Positions 3,007 to 39,380 of a stretch of DNA of 40,851 nt are shown here, one piece after another. Made by a program: the position numbers and the translations under genes. Origin of the DNA: a bacterium (GTDB lineage Bacteria; Sumerlaeota; Sumerlaeia; MVZB01); the NCBI GenBank assembly GCA_021372575.1, contig JAJFUE010000003.1, forward strand, positions 1 through 40,851, in the 5' to 3' direction. How positions within the stretch are numbered: the stretch's first letter is position 1; the number at the start of each line of letters is the position of its first letter. The notes beneath the pieces were generated by a model, which searched no databases, was not told where the DNA came from, and saw only the letters and a list, made by a program, of their open reading frames with translations.

Positions 3007-3090
3007 GTGCGGAGGACGGAGTGCGGAATGCGGAATCGATTTGGTTTCGATTACGATTACGAGCACGAGCACGAGCACGAACACGAACAA
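3007..3090 (+). repeat. Heptad array plus 6-base GATTAC/GAGCAC array upstream of pyrE
   Basis: Bases 3007-3034 are four 7-base units (GTGCGGA, GGACGGA, GTGCGGA, ATGCGGA). Bases 3046-3090 are the 6-base family: TTCGATTACGATTAC, then GAGCAC three times, then GAACAC. The array occupies the pyrE leader and is open in the pyrE frame, where it would encode a DYDYEHEHEHEHE tract. I place translation start after it. Confidence 0.85.
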
Positions 3091-3105
3091 GAACGGAGAT
3101 CAAGC

Positions 3106-3774
3106 GTGCAGCAATACAAACGCGAGTGCATTGAATTCATGGTGCGGTGCGAGGCGCTGCGGTTCGGGCGGTTTTTGACCAAGAGCGGGCGGACGAGCCC
3201 GTATTTCATGAACGCCGGGCGGTTCGACAGCGGGGCGCGGCTGGCGACTCTGGGCGGGTTCTATGCCCGGGCGATTATGGAGAATATGGGCGACCGGTTC
3301 GACCTGCTGTTCGGGCCGGCGTATAAGGGGATCCCGCTCGTGGCGGCGGCGTCGATCGCGCTGGCCGGGATGGGGCGCGACGTGCCGTTCACGTTCAACC
3401 GCAAGGAAATCAAGGATCACGGTGAGGGCGGCGGCCTGATCGGGCGTGCGCCGAAAAATGGGGACAGGATCGTCATCGTCGAGGACGTGACGACCGCCGG
3501 GACGTCTGTGCGCGAGACGGCGGCGCTGCTTGGGTCGGTGGCCGACGTGAAGCTGGCCGGGCTGGTCGTGCTGGTCGATCGCCAGGAGAAAGGCCCCGGC
3601 GGCAAGGGGGCCCTCACGGAGCTCAAAGAGGAATTTGGGATCGAGGCGTTCGCGATCGTCACGCTTGACGAGATCGTTGAGCATCTGCACGGCAAGCCGG
3701 TTGACGGCAAGGTTGTGCTCGATGACGCGGCGCTCGGGGAGATCAAGGAATACCGGGCGCAATATGGGGCGTGA
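3106..3774 (+). CDS. pyrE: Orotate phosphoribosyltransferase
   Basis: Joins orotate to PRPP to make orotidine 5'-monophosphate in de novo pyrimidine synthesis; cytoplasmic, normally a dimer. The 222-residue product shows the KSGRTSPYFMNAG segment, the GPAYKGIPL substrate loop, the FNRKEIKDHGEGG catalytic loop and the PRPP-binding signature IVIVEDVTTAGTS. Length fits the bacterial family (about 210-220). I chose the GTG at 3106 because GGAG lies eight bases upstream and the family begins there; an ATG at 3028 in the same frame would add a repeat-encoded acidic/histidine tract. The thrC gene follows in the same direction. The pyrE stop TGA overlaps a GTG in the thrC frame, but that GTG leads through another repeat and is probably not the thrC start. 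Confidence 0.95.
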   Translation: MQQYKRECIEFMVRCEALRFGRFLTKSGRTSPYFMNAGRFDSGARLATLGGFYARAIMENMGDRFDLLFGPAYKGIPLVAAASIALAGMGRDVPFTFNRKEIKDHGEGGGLIGRAPKNGDRIVIVEDVTTAGTSVRETAALLGSVADVKLAGLVVLVDRQEKGPGGKGALTELKEEFGIEAFAIVTLDEIVEHLHGKPVDGKVVLDDAALGEIKEYRAQYGA

Positions 3775-3779
3775 GAAAT

Positions 3780-3812
3780 GGGTCCTATAGGTCTTATAGG
3801 TCCTATAGGTCA
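3780..3812 (+). repeat. 9-base GGTCYTATA tandem array
   Basis: Units GGTCCTATA, GGTCTTATA, GGTCCTATA, GGTC in direct order between pyrE and thrC. Each unit pair contains the palindrome CCTATAGG. Related arrays are at 12365-12400, 25253-25300 and 39290-39344. Read in the thrC frame it is open and encodes repeated SYR. Confidence 0.85.
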
Positions 3813-3899
3813 CACGGGAACGATCTCGCACGATTCCCCGTTGCGCGAGTCGTTGCTGCTGAGTATCTTGAAAAAGATTACGTTGCGGAAGGGTGGGCT

Positions 3900-5252
3900 A
3901 TGGGTTCTCTCAAGTTTTACAGCACAAACGGCAAGGCGCCGATGGTCGATCTGAAGGGTGCGCTGCTGGCCGGGCAGGCGCCCGACCGTGGGCTTTACAT
4001 GCCGGAGCATGTCCCGACGCTCGATGCCGGGACGATCGCGTCGTTCGCCAAGCGGCCGTATCACGAGATCGCCGAAGAAGTGATCTGGCGCTATGCCGAG
4101 GGTGTCATTGATCGGGGGACGCTCGGCGAGCTCTGCCGCGACGCTTATAACTATGACGTGCCGCTGGAGAAGGTCTATGACCGCGTGCATGTGATGCGGC
4201 TGGACCGGGGGCCGACGGCGTCGTTCAAGGATTTCGCGGCGCGGATGATGGCGCGGCTGATCGGGCGGTTCGTGCGCGAGGACGGCCGCGAGCTGCTGAT
4301 CCTGACCGCTACGAGCGGCGATACCGGCTCGGCGGTGGCGAGCGCGTTCCACGGGGTGCCGGGGATCAAGGTGCTGGTGCTGTTTCCGATCAACGAGGTC
4401 AGCGACCGCCAGCGCAAGCAGATGACGACGCTGCGCGATAACATCCGGACGATCGCGATCGACGGCAAGTTCGACGACGCGCAGGCGATGGTCAAGCGCG
4501 CGTTCAGCGATCCGGCGCTTTCGGGGCTGCCGCTGTCGTCGGCGAATTCCATTAATATTGGCCGTTTGCTGCCGCAGTCGGTCTATTATTTCTACGCGGC
4601 GTCGCGCGTGGCGCAGGCCGGCGAACCGGTGGTGCTGTCCGTGCCGTCGGGCAACTTCGGCGACATGATGGGCGCGGTGCTGGCGCGCGAAATGGGGCTG
4701 CCGGTCAAACGGCTGGTCGTGCCGGTCAACGAGAACGACGAGTTCCCGAAGTTCCTCGCCACCGAACATTACGAGAAGGTCGAGCCGAGCCGGGCGTGCA
4801 TTTCCAACGCGATGAACGTGGGGCACCCGAGCAATCTCGCGCGGCTGGTGAACGTCTATGGCGGGTGGCTTGACGAGACGGGCGTGCTGCACAAGGCGCC
4901 GGATTTCGCGGCGATGCGGCGGGATTTGTTCTCGACGTCGGTCACCGACCAGGAGACGCGCGACGCGATCAAGAAGGCGTGGGACGATTACAAGCTGCTG
5001 CTCGAGCCGCACGGGGCGGTCGGCTGGAAGGGGTTCCTCGATTATTGCGCGAGCGAGCCGCTCGGCAACGCGCCGGCGGTGGTCGTCGAGACGGCCCACC
5101 CGGCCAAGTTCCCCGACGAGATCGAGCGCACGACGGGGGTTCACCCCGACGCGCCGCCCGCGCTCGCCGCGCTGGATGGATTGACGGAAGATTACGATTC
5201 AATGCCGGCGGAATACGAGGCGTTCAAGGCGTACTTGGTGAAGAAGTATTAA
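3900..5252 (+). CDS. thrC: Threonine synthase
   Basis: PLP-dependent conversion of O-phosphohomoserine to threonine. The 450-residue protein has the GLYMPE N-terminal segment and the PLP lysine in GPTASFKDFAARMM (Lys110), followed by ATSGDTGSA and the phosphate-binding SVPSGNFGD. These place it with the E. coli/yeast-type threonine synthases rather than the shorter plant-type group; length agrees. The ATG at 3900 is preceded by a purine-rich GGAAGGGTGGG and starts at the usual family N-terminus. The frame stays open upstream to a GTG overlapping the pyrE stop, which would add 43 residues including a repeat-encoded SYRSYRSYR tract. Probably co-transcribed with pyrE; the pairing of pyrimidine and threonine genes has no obvious regulatory logic that I can see. 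Confidence 0.95.
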   Translation: MGSLKFYSTNGKAPMVDLKGALLAGQAPDRGLYMPEHVPTLDAGTIASFAKRPYHEIAEEVIWRYAEGVIDRGTLGELCRDAYNYDVPLEKVYDRVHVMRLDRGPTASFKDFAARMMARLIGRFVREDGRELLILTATSGDTGSAVASAFHGVPGIKVLVLFPINEVSDRQRKQMTTLRDNIRTIAIDGKFDDAQAMVKRAFSDPALSGLPLSSANSINIGRLLPQSVYYFYAASRVAQAGEPVVLSVPSGNFGDMMGAVLAREMGLPVKRLVVPVNENDEFPKFLATEHYEKVEPSRACISNAMNVGHPSNLARLVNVYGGWLDETGVLHKAPDFAAMRRDLFSTSVTDQETRDAIKKAWDDYKLLLEPHGAVGWKGFLDYCASEPLGNAPAVVVETAHPAKFPDEIERTTGVHPDAPPALAALDGLTEDYDSMPAEYEAFKAYLVKKY

Positions 5253-5262
5253 TTCGATTTAA

Positions 5263-5512
5263 ACAGGAGGAAACGGAGAGAACAGAGAAATTGTTCATCG
5301 GTTCTTCTTGCATAAAACCATGAAGAAAAAAACGGGCGAGAGCGATTTAGGCATTCCAGAGCTTAAACGCGGGGAACTTGGAATAGGCGTGCGCGGCAAG
5401 TATTATCGACGCTTCCTGCGTGGCAGTCGTATCGTCGTGATGAATTCAAAAACGAATAAACCGAATACGAAATCAAAATAGAGATTTCTCTGTTCCCTCC
5501 GTTTCCTCCTGT
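5263..5512. repeat. 28-bp inverted repeat (27/28) enclosing a 194-bp cargo
   Basis: Left arm 5263-5290 begins ACAGGAGGAAACGGAG and ends CAGAGAAA. Right arm 5485-5512 is its reverse complement with one mismatch. The 194 bp between them hold a 53-codon open frame. A closely similar inverted pair at 35264-35318 forms a tight hairpin with no insert. Confidence 0.88.
5320..5481 (+). pseudogene. Truncated antitoxin-like small protein (53 codons)
   Basis: An ATG-initiated frame of 53 codons ending in TAG. The first two thirds look like a real protein: it starts MKKKTGESDLGIPELKRGEL and continues GVRGKYYRRFLRGSRIVVM. That central G-x-R-G-K-Y...G-S-x-x-V-V pattern resembles, from memory, small antitoxin-like proteins which normally continue with a Leu-x-Pro-Asp/Glu-Val-Ala segment and 20-40 more residues. 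Here the sequence instead switches after VVM to an Asn/Lys-rich tail encoded by A-rich quasi-repeat DNA. I read it as a 3'-truncated remnant carried between inverted repeats, with no toxin gene beside it. It could still be an expressed small protein. The family assignment rests on recall only. Confidence 0.5.
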
Positions 5513-5518
5513 TCAGAT

Positions 5519-5896
5519 TTATTTCTCGATGATCACGATCGCGGCGGCGATGTCGCGGGCGTGGGTGATGGAGACGTGGGCGCGGCGCATGCCGATGGCT
5601 TGCGCGCGCTCGGCGGCGCGGCCGTGGAAATGGATGTATGGGCGCTCGCCTTCGGCGCGCACGATTTCGATGTCTTTCCATAAAATTCCGCGCGCGATGC
5701 CCGTGCCGAGGGCTTTGGATCCGGCTTCTTTCGCCGCGTAACGCGCCGCGAGCCGCGGGACCGGATCGTGATGCAGGTTCGCGAAGCGCATTTCTTCCTC
5801 GGTGTAACAACGCTTGAGAAAGCGGTCGCCGTGGCGCGCAAGGACGGCGCGGATGCGGGCGAGTTCGGTCTGGTCGAAGCCGATGCCGATGATCAT
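5519..5896 (-). CDS. acpS: Holo-[acyl-carrier-protein] synthase
   Basis: Transfers 4'-phosphopantetheine from CoA to apo-ACP, activating fatty acid synthesis; cytoplasmic trimer in characterised members. The 125-residue length is typical. The N-terminal IIGIGFDQTEL carries the magnesium-binding Asp8, and RYAAKEAGSKALGTG holds the catalytic Lys56-Glu57 and Lys61 of the family. The C-terminal half has the HVSITHARDIAAA strand. The leader is unusual: from five bases upstream of the ATG it is a run of six 7-base units, and the only plausible ribosome-binding purines (AGGA, nine bases upstream) belong to that array. It is convergent with the inverted-repeat cassette and divergent from the two membrane-protein paralogs. 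Confidence 0.95.
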   Translation of the reverse strand: MIIGIGFDQTELARIRAVLARHGDRFLKRCYTEEEMRFANLHHDPVPRLAARYAAKEAGSKALGTGIARGILWKDIEIVRAEGERPYIHFHGRAAERAQAIGMRRAHVSITHARDIAAAIVIIEK

Positions 5897-5944: not shown

Positions 5945-5963
5945 AGAAAAACAAATTCAAATA

Positions 5964-6012
5964 CAGTTCACGAAATACACGAAATGACTCACGAAAGACA
6001 CGAAAATGTTTT
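5964..6012 (+). repeat. CACGAAA-type interspersed repeat
   Basis: CAGTTCACGAAATACACGAA is followed by further CACGAAA words and ends in ATGTTTTCGTG. Related copies flank 27766-27893 in inverted arrangement. Confidence 0.75.
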
Positions 6013-7794: not shown

Positions 7795-7935
7795 AATGAG
7801 CCTGATCGGAATAATCCGCGGTTTTGCGAAGTAGCGATTGGTTCGATTACAATTACGATTACGAGCACGAGCACGATGACTTCCGACGTATTTTCGTAGT
7901 ATTACGGGCACGAAGGGACAACCATCGGCAAGCGC
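7795..7935 (+). repeat. 6-base GATTAC/GAGCAC element with conserved flanks
   Basis: The core at 7842-7877 reads TTCGATTAC, AATTACGATTAC, then GAGCACGAGCACGA. The flanks CCGGCAATGA (left) and AGGGACAAC...TCGGCAAGCGCT (right) recur around the copy at 29023-29125, so the repeated unit is larger than the core. This copy carries about 30 extra bases between the core and the right flank. Confidence 0.75.
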
Positions 7936-12356: not shown

Positions 12357-12364
12357 GGGTAATA

Positions 12365-12400
12365 TTATAGGTCTTATAGGTCCTATAGGTCTTACAGGGT
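12365..12400. repeat. 9-base TATAGGTC array
   Basis: Plus-strand reading TATAGGTCTTATAGGTCC, then TATAGGTCTTACAGG, between two glycosyltransferase genes. It is of the same family as 3780-3812. Confidence 0.8.
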
Positions 12401-12401
12401 G

Positions 12402-13496
12402 TTACAAAACCATATCCGTTTGCATATCGTCAATCATTGCGTCCCAGGTGCGGGAGGCGGTATAGGTTTGGCCGGCGCGGGCTTTTTCGGTTGCGGCGGC
12501 GCGGTCGGCGAACAGGTATTGGGAGCGGTCGCGCCAGTCCTGCGCGGTGTCGGCCAGCTCGACGAAATTCGAGAGGAAACGCACCACGTCCGGCAGCGGC
12601 GTGGAAAGGACCGGCTTGCCGCCGGCGAGGTATTCGAGCGCCTTGACCGGGTAGAGGAAGCGGTGCGGTCCGGTCGTGTCGTAGGGGATGAGCGCGAGGT
12701 CGAATCGCGCGAGATACGATGGGAGCATCACGTATGGACGCGGGCCGATGCAGCGGACGCGGTCGGTTTCGGGAAGCGGCTCGAATCGGGAGGATGCGGG
12801 GCCGATCAGCAGGAGCCGCCATGGGGCCGCGTCGAGAAACGCCGTGACGCGCGCGGTGTCGAAGCGTTCGTTGAGCGCGCCGAAATAACCGGCGAGCGGA
12901 CCGCCGCCCGGCGGCAGGTCGCGCTCGATGCCGGCATCGAATTTCGGATTGGGGCGCGCGAACAGGGCGGCATCGACGCCGCACGGAACGAAGCGCGCGC
13001 TTGGGTGGCGGCCGGCGAGGCGGTCGGCGAGGGAGGCGGTGCCGGTCCAGACGCGATCGACGATCGAGAGCGCGGCGGCTTCGCGCGCCGTGCAGTCCTC
13101 GGGATTGATGATGTGCGCGCTGAGGTCGTCCATGTAATCGAAGATTCTGCGGCGTGCCGGGATGCCGGCCGCGACGGCATGCCAGCGCGGGTCGTTGAAG
13201 ATGACGACGTCCCACGGCTGTTGCGTGATGTTCAGCGCGGCGCGGCGCATGAAACCGATGTTGATCGAATCGATCGCGGCGATGCGGCTGCCGCCGGGGA
13301 GCCCCATGGGCTCGACGACGCGCAGGTTTTTGGGCAGCTCGACGCCGCTGGCGACGCGTTTCGATTTGCGGTGAACGTAGCCGGGGCTCATGTAGGTCAC
13401 GTCCCAGCCGCGCCGCGCCAGGCCGACGGCCATGTGCTGCGGGCGCTGAAACGCGCCGGCCCATTCGACGAATGAGATGATCAGAGCCGAAGCCAT
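12402..13496 (-). CDS. GT-B glycosyltransferase (QRPQH group)
   Basis: A 364-residue predicted glycosyltransferase. Its N-terminus reads IISFVEWAGAFQRPQHMAVG, the QRP-x-H-x-A pattern seen in TuaH-like and related surface-polysaccharide glycosyltransferases. The middle has VDRVWTGTASLADRL and FVPCGVDAALF, corresponding to the second Rossmann half, and the C-terminal part has YPVKALEYLAGGKPVLSTPLPDV, the usual donor-site region. I start it at ATG 13496, which lies inside the last 16 bases of the upstream glycosyltransferase gene; the frame is open further upstream but that stretch is antisense-quality sequence overlapping its neighbour. The overlap indicates translational coupling. Substrate unknown. 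Confidence 0.85.
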   Translation of the reverse strand: MASALIISFVEWAGAFQRPQHMAVGLARRGWDVTYMSPGYVHRKSKRVASGVELPKNLRVVEPMGLPGGSRIAAIDSINIGFMRRAALNITQQPWDVVIFNDPRWHAVAAGIPARRRIFDYMDDLSAHIINPEDCTAREAAALSIVDRVWTGTASLADRLAGRHPSARFVPCGVDAALFARPNPKFDAGIERDLPPGGGPLAGYFGALNERFDTARVTAFLDAAPWRLLLIGPASSRFEPLPETDRVRCIGPRPYVMLPSYLARFDLALIPYDTTGPHRFLYPVKALEYLAGGKPVLSTPLPDVVRFLSNFVELADTAQDWRDRSQYLFADRAAATEKARAGQTYTASRTWDAMIDDMQTDMVL

Positions 13497-14686: not shown

Positions 14687-14730
14687 GGGAAGATCCAGTC
14701 GGAAACGGTCGGGAACCTGAAATAAATTCT

Positions 14731-14834
14731 AATGAGAAATGAGAAATGAGCAATGAGAAATGAGAAACCGCAAAAGAGCCGTGCCCCGTGCCAGGCGGCT
14801 CATTTTAGATTTCTCATTTCTCATTTCTCATTTT
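14731..14834. repeat. Compound palindrome of AATGAGA / TCTCATT heptads
   Basis: Left array 14731-14765: five units AATGAGA (one AATGAGC). Right array 14809-14834: ATTTCTC three times and ATTTT, the exact complement of the left units. An inner stem lies between them (GAGCCG 14776-14781, CGGCTC 14796-14801). It has the same architecture as 11086-11190 but unrelated bases. Confidence 0.9.
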
Positions 14835-14861
14835 AAATTCAATTGGATTGCCACGACCAGC

Positions 14862-15652: not shown

Positions 15653-15710
15653 GATCGCGCGTGAGGGAATCGCCGAAACCCTTGCCGGATGTTGAATATT
15701 CGGCAAGGGT

Positions 15711-15738
15711 TTCGATTACGATTACGAGCACGAGCACA
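15711..15738 (+). repeat. 6-base GATTAC/GAGCAC array
   Basis: TTCGATTACGATTAC, then GAGCACGAGCAC, ending six bases short of the stop codon (15744-15746) of the minus-strand heparinase gene. Confidence 0.85.
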
Positions 15739-15743
15739 AACCG

Positions 15744-23413: not shown

Positions 23414-23441
23414 TCGATTACGATTACGAGCACGAGCACGA
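23414..23441 (+). repeat. 6-base GATTAC/GAGCAC array
   Basis: TCGATTACGATTACGAGCAC followed by GAGCACGA, in the spacer between the divergent NtrC-type gene and bshC. Confidence 0.85.
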
Positions 23442-25252: not shown

Positions 25253-25300
25253 ATGGGTCCCATGGGTCCTATAAGACCCATGAGACCCATAGGACGCACG
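25253..25300. repeat. Inverted 9-base GGGTCCTATA / TATAGGACCC element
   Basis: GGGTCCCATGGGTCCTATAA on the left and GACCCATGAGACCCATAGGA on the right form a near-symmetric palindrome between the convergent bshC and beta-helix genes. It is of the same word family as 3780-3812. A terminator role for both genes is possible, but no U-tract follows. Confidence 0.75.
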
Positions 25301-25307
25301 GTGGGAA

Positions 25308-27763: not shown

Positions 27764-27893
27764 GTCACGAAATTCACGAAAAAGGGAAACCATATTTGTC
27801 GCAGAGAAGCAGAGTTTGGCAGAGACGCAGAGCATATTGCTGAACAGAAGAATTGAACAGGTACGGAAAACATTTTCGTGTGTTTTGTGAACT
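27764..27893. repeat. Inverted CACGAAA repeats enclosing a GCAGAGA array
   Basis: Left arm 27764-27785 reads GTCACGAAATTCACGAAAAA. Right arm 27870-27893 reads ACATTTTCGTGTGTTTTGTG, the reverse complement of the same family. In the centre, 27797-27832 carries GCAGAGAAGCAGAG, TTTGGCAGAG and ACGCAGAG. A related right-hand element sits at 5964-6012. Confidence 0.75.
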
Positions 27894-29022: not shown

Positions 29023-29125
29023 GCAATGAACCAGATTCGAATGGTTCCCGGTTGGGCGAGCCGGTGATGGGTTCGATTACGATTACGAGCACGAGCACGA
29101 AGGGACAACTTTCGGCAAGCGCTTT
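29023..29125 (+). repeat. 6-base GATTAC/GAGCAC element with conserved flanks
   Basis: The core at 29072-29100 reads TTCGATTACGATTAC, GAGCACGAGCACGA. It is flanked by CCGGCAATGA on the left and AGGGACAACTTTCGGCAAGC on the right, as in the copy at 7795-7935. Confidence 0.8.
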
Positions 29126-31814: not shown

Positions 31815-31957
31815 ACGCCAAGATGCCAAGAACGCCAAGATAAGAAAATTTCTTTGACGCAGAGAAGCAGAGATGGGCAGAGAGGCTGAGAGAATTTTAA
31901 GATTAATCTGAATTCTTGGCGATCTTGGCGTTAAGAAATCTCTGCGTTCTCTGCGAA
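31815..31957. repeat. Interleaved inverted repeats CGCCAAGA and GCAGAGA
   Basis: Order along the strand: L1 ACGCCAAGATGCCAAGAACG (31815-31841), L2 GACGCAGAGAAGCAGAGA (31856-31873), R1 TTCTTGGCGATCTTGGCG (31913-31930), R2 TCTCTGCGTTCTCTGCG (31939-31955). L1 pairs with R1 and L2 with R2, so the two stems cross rather than nest. It separates the convergent PLP-homeostasis and unknown anchored genes. Confidence 0.85.
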
Positions 31958-33205: not shown

Positions 33206-33659
33206 GATTCAGCTTCGCCGAAGCGAGGGTTGATTTGCAAGAGCCGGAACGTGTGACGAGAGGCGTTTTTTCGTGCTTGTGCTCGCAATCCTGGCCGGGC
33301 CAAGCCAGAACCAAACACATGTTGCAGTCTCGATCGACACATCCAATCGGCTGGAGCCGACGATCGCGATTGTATTTCAAGAACCATACAATTTGTGGCC
33401 ATTTTACATTTAATTTCAGCCGTTAGAGTAATCGTAATCGAAGGTGACGCGCGTTCCCAAAACCCTTCTCGCCAATATTAAAATCATTGATTGACACGCC
33501 CGGTTTATGCGAGGGATGTGGTTCTTGTTGTTGATGATGATCGATCTGGATACGATGCAGTAGCCCGAGCGAAAGGGCGAGGGACACGCGATTCGAGAGG
33601 GCTGCGATTACAAGCGCGAGCACGAATACCGCTTCCAAATGTTCGACAGGAAAATAACC
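33206..33659. other. Repeat-bearing spacer upstream of aroC
   Basis: No gene is supported. Contents: a minus-strand GATTAC/GAGCAC element split by about 141 bases (33271-33442), a GTAGCCCGAGCG...GCGAGGGACA element (about 33560-33592), and a degenerate 6-base copy (33604-33627). Confidence 0.65.
33271..33442 (-). repeat. Interrupted copy of the 6-base GATTAC/GAGCAC element
   Basis: Minus-strand reading TTCGATTACGATTAC (33442-33428), then about 141 unrelated bases, then GCGAGCACAAGCACGA (33286-33271). The junction falls exactly between the GATTAC and GAGCAC halves of the element. Confidence 0.6.
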
Positions 33660-34859
33660 ATGCTGCGTTACATGACATCGGGTGAGTCGCACGGGCCGCA
33701 ACTGACGGCGATCGTGAGCGGGTTGCCGGCGGGCCTGCCGGTGCGCGCCGCGGATATCGACCGCGATCTCCATCGCCGCCAGGGCGGCTACGGCCGCGGC
33801 GGGCGCATGGCGATCGAGCACGACGTTGTGCGCATCGTTTCCGGCGTGCGCCACGGTTTCGCCATGGGGAGCCCGATCACGCTCATCGTGGAAAACCGCG
33901 ACTGGAAAAGCTGGCAGGCGATCATGTCGGCGGAGCCGGTTGAAGATGTTGAGGGCAAGCGCGCCGTCACGCGCCCACGGCCCGGCCACGCCGACCTCGC
34001 CGGCATCCAAAAATTCGCCCACACCGACGCGCGCAACATCCTCGAGCGGGCGTCGGCGCGCGCCACCACGACGCAGGTTGCCGTCGGCGCGCTGTGCAAG
34101 GCGCTCCTTGCCGAGTTCGGCATCCGCGTCGGCTCGCACGTGACGGAACTCGGCCACATCAAGGTCAGCCCAGAGCTGATCGCGTCCCTGTCGCTCGACG
34201 AAATCGAGCGGCGCGTCGAAGCCAGCGAGCTGCGCGTCGCCGATCCGTCGCTCGAGGCCGAGATGAAGCGGCTCATCGACAGCGTCAAGGCCGATGGCGA
34301 CACGGTCGGCGGGGTGTTCGAAGTCATCGCCACCGGCGTCCCGTCCGGCCTCGGCAACGTCATGAACTGGGACGAGCGCCTCGACGGCCGCATCGGCCAG
34401 GCGTTCATGGCGCTTCAGGCGATCAAGGGCGTCGAAATCGGTCTTGGGTTCGAGGGGGCGCGCCGCCCCGGCAGCGAAGCCCACGATCCGATTCTCTACT
34501 CGGAGCATTCGGCCGATTGGCCCGAAGGCCACGGCCCGAGCGGCGGTTTTTACCGCAAGACCAATGGCGCCGGCGGCATCGAAGGCGGCATGAGCAACGG
34601 CGAGCCGATCGTCGTGCGCGCGGCGATGAAGCCGATCGCGACGCTCATGCGCTCGATCCAGTCGGTCGATTTCGCGACGCGCCAGCCGTTCGACGCCAGC
34701 AAGGAACGCAGCGACGTCTGCGCCGTCCCCGCGGCCGCCGTGATCGGCGAATCGCTTCTGGCGATCGTCCTGGCACAGGCATTTTTGGAGAAATTCGGCG
34801 CCGACAGCCTCGTTGAACTGAAACGAAATTATGAAGGCTATATCGAATCGCTCGGGTAG
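33660..34859 (+). CDS. aroC: Chorismate synthase
   Basis: Converts EPSP to chorismate, the last common step of aromatic amino acid synthesis; needs reduced FMN. The 399-residue protein has the N-terminal SGESHGPQL, the FMN/substrate block RRQGGYGRGGRM, RPRPGHADLAGI, and TDARNILERASARAT. The conserved SNGEPIVVRAAMKPIAT and the closing helix are in place. I chose ATG 33660, with AGGA eight bases upstream and family N-terminus at once; an earlier in-frame ATG at 33639 adds seven residues. The stop codon lies in GGGTAGGTCGGGTCTTCGAC, the start of the long repeat behind the gene. Confidence 0.96.
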   Translation: MLRYMTSGESHGPQLTAIVSGLPAGLPVRAADIDRDLHRRQGGYGRGGRMAIEHDVVRIVSGVRHGFAMGSPITLIVENRDWKSWQAIMSAEPVEDVEGKRAVTRPRPGHADLAGIQKFAHTDARNILERASARATTTQVAVGALCKALLAEFGIRVGSHVTELGHIKVSPELIASLSLDEIERRVEASELRVADPSLEAEMKRLIDSVKADGDTVGGVFEVIATGVPSGLGNVMNWDERLDGRIGQAFMALQAIKGVEIGLGFEGARRPGSEAHDPILYSEHSADWPEGHGPSGGFYRKTNGAGGIEGGMSNGEPIVVRAAMKPIATLMRSIQSVDFATRQPFDASKERSDVCAVPAAAVIGESLLAIVLAQAFLEKFGADSLVELKRNYEGYIESLG

Positions 34860-34877: not shown

Positions 34878-35160
34878 TATGTGTTTAGCACGGCTAATTC
34901 GAATTTTTGCGCTGAAAGCGCAAGAGAATTTAGCCTGGGGCGGAGCGCAGCGCAGCCCCAGGTTGTGAGTCGATAAAAACCGGAGCGCTGAAAGCGCGAA
35001 AGAAATCGATTTCTCTCGCGCCTTCAGCGCTCGCGACTGATTGGGATCGCTGTCCTGGGGCTGCGCTGCGCTCCGCCCCAGGCTTTATTCTTTCGCGCCT
35101 TCGGCGCTCAGGCGTTAACGCCTTTCAATTGGAATCGGCTTGCGCACGCTAAACACATAC
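34878..35160. repeat. Long nested palindrome (about 280 bp)
   Basis: Arms, outside in: GTATGTGTTTAGC (34878-34890) / GCTAAACACATAC (35148-35160). Then 29-base arms starting CCTGGGGCGGAGCGC (34934-34962) and their perfect complement (35054-35082). Then GAGCGCTGAAAGCGCGA...TCGCGCCTTCAGCGCTC around a centre near 35008. The element contains no open frame of note. The start of a related copy closes the window at 40627-40851. Confidence 0.92.
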
Positions 35161-35203
35161 TCGACCCGACTCCGGGTCAGTAGGTCGCTTCGGCTCGACA
35201 TGA

Positions 35204-35430
35204 ATGCAGTAGCCCGAGCGTCAGTGAGGGATAACCTTCTCAACTTTTTTCAGCAAAGTAAAAACAGGAGGAAACGGAGGAAACAGAGAATTTCTCCGTT
35301 CCCTCCGTTTTCTCCTGTTTAAAAAAAATCTCTGTTCTCCGTCTCTCTGTGTCTCTGTGGCAAAAAAATCTTTGAATCTGTTTTTACCGATCGTGCCGCG
35401 TGTCCCTCGCTCACGCTCGGGCTACTGCAT
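35204..35430. repeat. Second palindrome: GTAGCCCGAGCG arms around a GGAGGAAACGGAGG hairpin
   Basis: Outer arms: ATGCAGTAGCCCGAGCG (about 35204-35220) and CGCTCGGGCTACTGCAT (about 35414-35430), mutually complementary. Between them sits the 35264-35318 hairpin, ACAGGAGGAAACGGAGG...TCTCCTGT, plus a TCTCTGTGTCTCTGTGGC stretch. The hairpin is the same family as the inverted arms at 5263-5512, without cargo. Confidence 0.85.
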
Positions 35431-35443
35431 GGATGTCCTCGCT

Positions 35444-36406
<963 letters not shown>

Positions 36407-36496
36407 GGTGGGAATCCTCGCAGCACGACATCCAGGCACAATACCCGGCGCCTTAATGTAGCAAATTTCCCGAAAATATGAAGCAAGATTCGAAAT

Positions 36497-39208: not shown

Positions 39209-39289
39209 GGCATCCCCCTTATCGTTCACATCGCGATCAAGTATGCCCGAAGCGATGGGTGATTGAAAGCATCGTGTGGTTGGGTGCCG

Positions 39290-39344
39290 TAGGTCTTATG
39301 GGTCTTATAGGTCTTATAGGTCCTACAGGTCCCATAAGACCTGT
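39290..39344 (+). repeat. 9-base array with inverted end (GGTCTTATA ... TATAAGACC type)
   Basis: AGGTCTTATG, GGTCTTATA, GGTCTTATA, GGTCCTACA, GGTCCCATAAGACC: a direct run whose last unit reverses. It sits in the leader of the membrane-protein gene at 39381 and is open in its frame, again encoding SYR. Confidence 0.8.
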
Positions 39345-39380
39345 TGCCCCCCACGCGAATTATTTTTAAGATATCGACCG

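Follow-up and report, generated by a model that had tools for sequence, protein, structure and literature searches.

Two inverted arms enclose a short reading frame between thrC and acpS in the window (the whole analysed stretch of 40,851 nucleotides, which is contig C194 of a draft genome of 4.63 Mb), and the question that this locus raises is whether the arms are the ends of a mobile unit and, if so, of which kind. The sequence-only reading had described 28-base arms, complementary at 27 of 28 positions, around 194 bp that hold a 53-codon frame, and had taken the arms for the ends of a small non-autonomous mobile unit or for a hairpin into which cargo is captured. The pairing (5262-5289 against 5486-5513) and the extent of the frame were recomputed, and the description was reproduced. 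The coordinates are given in Table 1.

Table 1. Features of the arm-bounded unit, its neighbouring genes and the second member of the arm family in the window.
Feature	Positions	Strand	Description
thrC	3771..5252	+	TIGR00260, E 2.8e-68; convergent neighbour of the unit
Left arm	5262..5290	+	AACAGGAGG AAACGGAGA GAACAGAGAAA; purine-rich, three units of roughly 9 nt
Interior	5291..5484		194 bp; occurs once in the genome
53-codon frame P0001	5320..5481 (ATG 5320, TAG 5481)	+	Candidate N-terminal half of a BrnT-partner-type antitoxin
Right arm	5485..5513	-	TTTCTCTGTTCCCTCCGTTTCCTCCTGTT; pairs with the left arm
acpS	5519..5896	-	TIGR00516; convergent neighbour of the unit
Second family member	35263..35319		Hairpin with a 5-bp loop, no insert

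The gap between the thrC stop codon and the left arm is 9 bp, and that between the right arm and the acpS stop codon is 5 bp. The interior has a GC content of 43%, compared to 61% for the window, and it was found only once in the genome, whereas the arms are repeated; for example, the first 30 bases of the left arm recur without change in a single arm at C47:13078-13107. The region 5262-5513 folds far better than shuffled sequences, with a z value of -6.6. The unit has GATTTA on either side, 2 bp out of register, and the search for target-site duplications that had been proposed as a check gave a negative result: the window unit and most others show none, and none was consistent next to the arms across the family units examined. 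In the nearest relative, G001, which belongs to the same taxonomic family, a different 9-nt repeat (GTCCCTTAC GTCCCTTAT GTCCCTTGC; L244 5190-5240) lies directly 3′ of acpS, where the window has the right arm, and at this junction, which was compared with thrC-acpS, the gene after acpS differs from that of the window.

The protein P0001 encoded by the frame matched no Pfam or NCBIfam model. It was found to resemble full-length proteins, 67-83 residues long, both of this genome (contig C13, weakly) and of genomes G010, G011, G029 and G047, with 29-40% identity across the N-terminal half, and in G010, G011 and G029 the homolog immediately follows a BrnT toxin gene, whose identity was confirmed by PF04365. 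P0001 aligns with this antitoxin family up to about residue 41 and diverges from there on, with the C-terminal half of the family missing and a tail (MNSKTNKPNTKSK) that is A-rich and unrelated to the family, and a search of this genome for BrnT (PF04365) found none. These results bear out the earlier claims that the protein looks genuine for about 40 residues before it becomes A-rich and that it is a truncated antitoxin with no toxin; a lack of homologs, which would have counted against the earlier reading, was not observed for the first ~41 residues. P0001 is similar to BrnT-adjacent proteins, is neither full length nor next to a toxin gene, and is best read from the alignment as a putative decayed N-terminal fragment of a BrnT-partner-type antitoxin gene. 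The full-length antitoxin relative of this genome (L022, G000:C13:25693-28467) adjoins frames read as HigA-like and DUF4288-like, with no BrnT, and these neighbours are possibly a different partner for the antitoxin family.

The distribution of the arms in this genome was evaluated by searching for the arm motif AACAGGAGGAAACNGAGNNAACAGAG with up to 3 mismatches. There were 55 forward and 55 reverse matches, whereas the reversed-pattern control gave 0, and so both window copies are members of a large dispersed family at about 110 sites, as opposed to one fixed locus. The arms consist of short tandem repeats of about 9 nt (AACAGGAGG.AAC.GAGG.AACAGAG). In the stretches fetched around arm sites of this genome, 49 arm pairs in inverted orientation were counted, along with 17 arms without a partner. 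Nearly all of the pairs span 53-113 bp, and just three are long, with spans of 252 bp in the window, 270 bp at C133 and about 425 bp at C41. About 20 near-identical copies are part of an extended mosaic with other short repeats, and in these the arms gain or lose exactly 9 bp; the remaining units have unique flanks and unique interiors.

Because almost all pairs fall within 53-113 bp, the "empty" form is the rule of the family. This changes the meaning of the hairpin at 35263-35319, which is flanked by chorismate synthase (33639-34859, + strand) and nadA (35444-36439, - strand) and had been put forward as a near-identical, empty relative of the cassette. The pair exists and has no insert, but its arms are 25/28 complementary and it is an ordinary form of the family, not a special relative of the cassette. 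Its folding relative to shuffled sequences gave a z value of -8.9, and it has a terminator-like score on one strand. As for the other long interiors, a Pfam search of their frames gave no match, and one of them (that of C41) appears to hold a frame-broken, small membrane-protein-like sequence, so the decayed cargo of the window may not be unique. On the basis of the window copy and this one other decayed-looking interior in the genome, we have low to moderate confidence that the antitoxin fragment was actively captured by the unit, as opposed to being left over.

The orientation of the flanking genes was assigned with a simple codon-usage gene caller for the 30 classifiable hairpins that have unique flanks. 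Convergent gene pairs flank 19 of them and tandem pairs the other 11, and none is flanked by a divergent pair (binomial 5e-5 and 1.4e-3); the units in general are mostly intergenic and mostly at gene 3′ ends. This placement is compatible with tolerated insertion and with a 3′-end role alike.

The arm motif, with up to 2 mismatches, was present in 0 of 60 other genomes, which were relatives and outgroups that included 39 of the same phylum. Yet the exact motif was found in at least 107 stretches of other genomes, and the phylum labels of the exact matches were Planctomycetota, Verrucomicrobiota, Acidobacteria/Pyrinomonadaceae, Omnitrophota and Rhodothermaeota. Among the matches listed, 89 of 107 stretches hold an inverted pair, with interiors of 0 to about 270 bp; arms in viral sequence amounted to only 7 stretches. 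Absence from the 60 genomes together with exact matches in distant phyla means that vertical descent cannot explain the distribution, and we infer that repeated horizontal spread or a shared machinery is needed. The many loci, the different interiors, the near-identical copies and the spread across phyla thus favour dispersed, non-autonomous unit ends, as the original reading had it, whereas its "empty" pair and the duplications sought do not add to that case. On two stretches of Planctomycetota bin.426 (L202 and L196), copies of a recurrent type of gene, which encodes proteins of about 330-380 residues, occur in alternation with family hairpins, and this alternation suggests that hairpin and gene may have duplicated together.

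The sole recurrent gene among the arm-bounded intervals encodes a GxxExxY protein. On the planctomycete contig L204, a GxxExxY gene (PF13366) is bracketed by arms of the window type. Near this element are three short units whose interiors have the same two ends as its own and which are internally deleted copies of it (blastn E 3.6e-19 in one case, with weaker values in the other two). This genome has one gene of the arm-associated clade, at C41:14138-14482, bracketed by the same arms. Membership of the GxxExxY family (PF13366/TIGR04256) was indicated by 117 bits for the C41 protein, relative to a cut-off of 22, and by 128.6 bits for protein P0002, relative to a cut-off of 35. Residues D72, E82 and K84, in the arrangement D...E-x-K, are invariant in six aligned GxxExxY proteins, and this, along with the Pfam family, points to a member of the PD-(D/E)XK superfamily and a predicted nuclease. 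A structure prediction had a mean pLDDT of 47, which was too poor for use, and no solved structure of any GxxExxY protein was found.

The first nine cases of arms with GxxExxY came from contigs picked for their arms and were therefore biased, and so the association was retested in two ways without such selection. In the first test, all relatives of P0002 in 40 whole arm-bearing genomes were collected, and the clade was defined as proteins at least 55% identical to P0002. Arms were present within 250 bp of 22 of the 23 clade genes (on both sides of 18 of the 23, with two others cut by a contig end), compared to 2 of the 7 more distant GxxExxY genes in these genomes, both of them weak (Fisher 8e-4 relative to the clade). 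Eight of the 40 genomes had no GxxExxY match and others had non-clade matches only, for which incomplete assemblies may be part of the explanation.

In the second test, GxxExxY genes of the window's phylum were selected by PF13366 alone, and the 200-bp flanks of each gene were compared to each other. A strong inverted repeat was present between the gene's own flanks in 43 of 65 cases, compared to about 7% of mismatched flank pairs, and in none of the 67 control genes, which are from this genome and comparable in size. Some of these GxxExxY genes also have repeats in direct orientation, which is expected if each side can be a full hairpin. The flank repeats are built from 8-10-nt units that vary by gene, such as the CACAGATT and CACGAAGG types, and a further example is a GxxExxY gene with inverted ACGCCAAGACGCCAAGAACGCCAAGA / ACGCCAAGA repeats (L253, G000:C45:23008-23355) that lies between genes read as atpG and atpD. 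The junction between atpG and atpD is usually tight.

Repeat similarity rises with GxxExxY protein identity (Mantel rho 0.37; 0/2000 permutations). In the phylogenetic tree, the eight proteins with AACAGG arms form one clade with support of 100/99, and the GxxExxY protein of this genome nests among members from Verrucomicrobiota and Acidobacteriota. Relatives of P0002 were absent from viral contigs and from phages, and the 8 matches to P0002 in plasmid records were all distant. Taken together, these data show with high confidence that the arms are associated with GxxExxY genes and that the association is clade-specific.

Comparison of sites with and without the gene indicates how such units are bounded. 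Sphingomonas parapaucimobilis carries a GxxExxY gene, together with inverted repeats, in the space between fabD and fabG, whereas in S. paeninsulae fabD and fabG are adjacent with no GxxExxY gene between them. Similarly, Bacteroides finegoldii has a GxxExxY gene between radA and a gene for an FAD protein, and these two genes are adjacent in Parabacteroides distasonis, with no GxxExxY gene. In both comparisons, the repeats are the edges of the extra DNA. Because the paired junctions are from different species or genera and from GxxExxY clades other than that of the window, they show the presence or absence of a repeat-bounded unit in general, as opposed to movement of the window family.

The closest known system is that of REPIN/REP sequences with RAYT (TnpA-REP), together termed "REPtrons" (PMC3116915, PMC8266576, PMC2817692). 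The likeness is in extragenic, hairpin-forming inverted doublets with a spacer, which occur many times per genome, mostly as pairs, with tandem clusters and some singlets that look like remnants (here, 49 dispersed and mostly intergenic hairpin pairs), and in a usually low-copy gene that is bracketed by its own repeat type, such that repeat and gene lineages co-vary. The difference is that the gene here is GxxExxY, of the PD-(D/E)XK type, in place of a Y1 HUH transposase, and that the arms are tandem 8-10-nt units in place of a palindrome with a GTAG-type tag. The units resemble MITEs in their terminal inverted repeats, their small size and, as found on L204, interiors that result from internal deletion of a gene-bearing element; they differ in the lack of a consistent target-site duplication of constant length, in having interiors mostly unrelated between copies, and in a partner that is no known transposase. 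Relative to BrnT/BrnA type II systems, the cargo is like a protein encoded directly 3′ of BrnT toxin genes in three genomes, but it is truncated, its family has no Pfam model, and this genome lacks BrnT. The C41 protein and P0002 are ordinary members of GxxExxY (TIGR04256; PF13366 PDDEXK_3), and the literature searched gave no connection between this family and inverted repeats of its own; the papers there that name the family deal with other subjects.

These comparisons raise an alternative in which the arms are ordinary MITE- or REP-type repeats moved by a transposase encoded elsewhere, with GxxExxY as a passenger in the safe insertion sites between repeats. The intergenic location of the units, mostly at gene 3′ ends, the 13 matches to Y1 transposase (PF01797) in the genome, and the commonness of REP-like and MITE-like families are in agreement with it. 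However, arms were near 0 of the 13 Y1 loci (fetched flanks of about 1.5 kb), for which reason a Y1 transposase was rejected as the driver; moreover, passenger status gives no account of clade-specific arms or of repeats that track the GxxExxY tree, and GxxExxY alone recurs in arm-bounded intervals. We consider this alternative unlikely. A 98-nt inverted repeat, 84% complementary, does lie just downstream of a Y1 transposase match (L118 1938-2242, G000:C83), and has the appearance of an ordinary arrangement of the RAYT/IS200 type, distinct from the arm family.

It is more doubtful that the locus is a remnant of a BrnT-antitoxin operon between thrC and acpS, at which two arms arrived independently and no cassette exists. 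The short distances of the arms from the gene ends, the existence of single arms and the departure of the frame from its family half way could be accommodated in this way, but the two arms match each other at 27/28 positions, inspection of three frames upstream of the ATG gave no trace of BrnT, the genome has none, and inverted pairs greatly outnumber single arms. The least probable proposal, that the hairpins are bidirectional terminators or 3′-end mRNA stabilisers under selection, with mobility incidental or absent, draws on the convergent and tandem placement and on the terminator-like strand of 35263-35319, but there is no terminator-like site at 5150-5600, the placement may equally reflect tolerated insertion sites, and a terminator needs neither a conserved 26-nt sequence common to several phyla, nor about 20 loci that carry near-identical composite copies, nor a cognate gene. 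The clade-specific pairing of arms and GxxExxY is explained by none of these three alternatives.

The interpretation that we favour, and regard as probable, is that the locus is a REPIN-like unit that has GxxExxY, instead of a RAYT, as its cognate gene and that encloses a decayed piece of an antitoxin gene. On the model of REPINs and RAYTs, GxxExxY would recognise and probably cut its own arms, and the arm-bounded units would be copied or moved in trans by it; the chances that GxxExxY is the mobilising enzyme seem to us about even. The window unit would be a non-autonomous member that has moved, and its interior, which has nothing in common with GxxExxY, would have acquired the 5′ half of a gene for an antitoxin of the BrnT-partner type, which has since decayed.

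Several large phyla with few cultured members are rich in short-period intergenic repeats, for which we know of no accepted explanation. No known role was found for GxxExxY, a common small protein family, and in the literature covered, which took in few subscription journals, there was neither a link of GxxExxY to repeats nor a description of the arm repeats. We tentatively suggest, with somewhat more doubt than conviction, that GxxExxY genes and their cognate inverted repeats of 8-10-nt units may constitute an unrecognised class of mobile elements in many phyla, in which the nuclease recognises the arms and units are copied in trans, including ones that have picked up small genes of unrelated origin, like the antitoxin of the window. 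If so, the debris of this class would make up many of the short-period repeats that lack an explanation in the genomes of planctomycetes, verrucomicrobia and similar bacteria, and each repeat type would be tied to its own GxxExxY lineage, which would account for the repeats and the protein family together. The arrangement would, in addition, parallel REP/RAYT as a second one of independent build, based on another enzyme superfamily, and it would provide an enzyme-substrate pair open to direct testing.

The window contains several other repeats. The hairpin at 35263-35319 is enclosed by an inverted 35-nt pair with GCAGTAGCCCGAGCG (35197-35231 and 35403-35437), giving nested repeat pairs, and the GCAGTAGCCCGAGCG-containing repeat is also present at 33555-33588 and 112-141. 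Just upstream of this hairpin is a 54-nt inverted repeat that corresponds to facing matches to the Acido-Lenti-1 RNA (RF01687) at 34908-34962 (-) and 35054-35108 (+); an Rfam search of the window gave nothing but Acido-Lenti-1, which is outside the thrC-acpS unit. Another repeat of 9-nt units, ATAGGTCTTATAGGTCCTATAGGTC, is at 3769-3832, 12358-12412, 25253-25301 and 39280-39354, with copies in either orientation and, in one case, two inverted copies side by side, and it possibly represents the arms of another GxxExxY lineage. A hexamer-type dispersed repeat, GATTACGATTACGAGCACGAGCACGA, is at 3029-3092, 7825-7876, 15688-15739, 23414-23441 and 29055-29106, and a GAAATGAG inverted pair is at 14724-14839. 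The short-period repeat CGCAGAGAAGCAGAG (27786-27832 and 31844-31890) and units of the CACGAAAT type (about 5960-6000) are of types that recur within the mosaic around a 72-bp hairpin subfamily.
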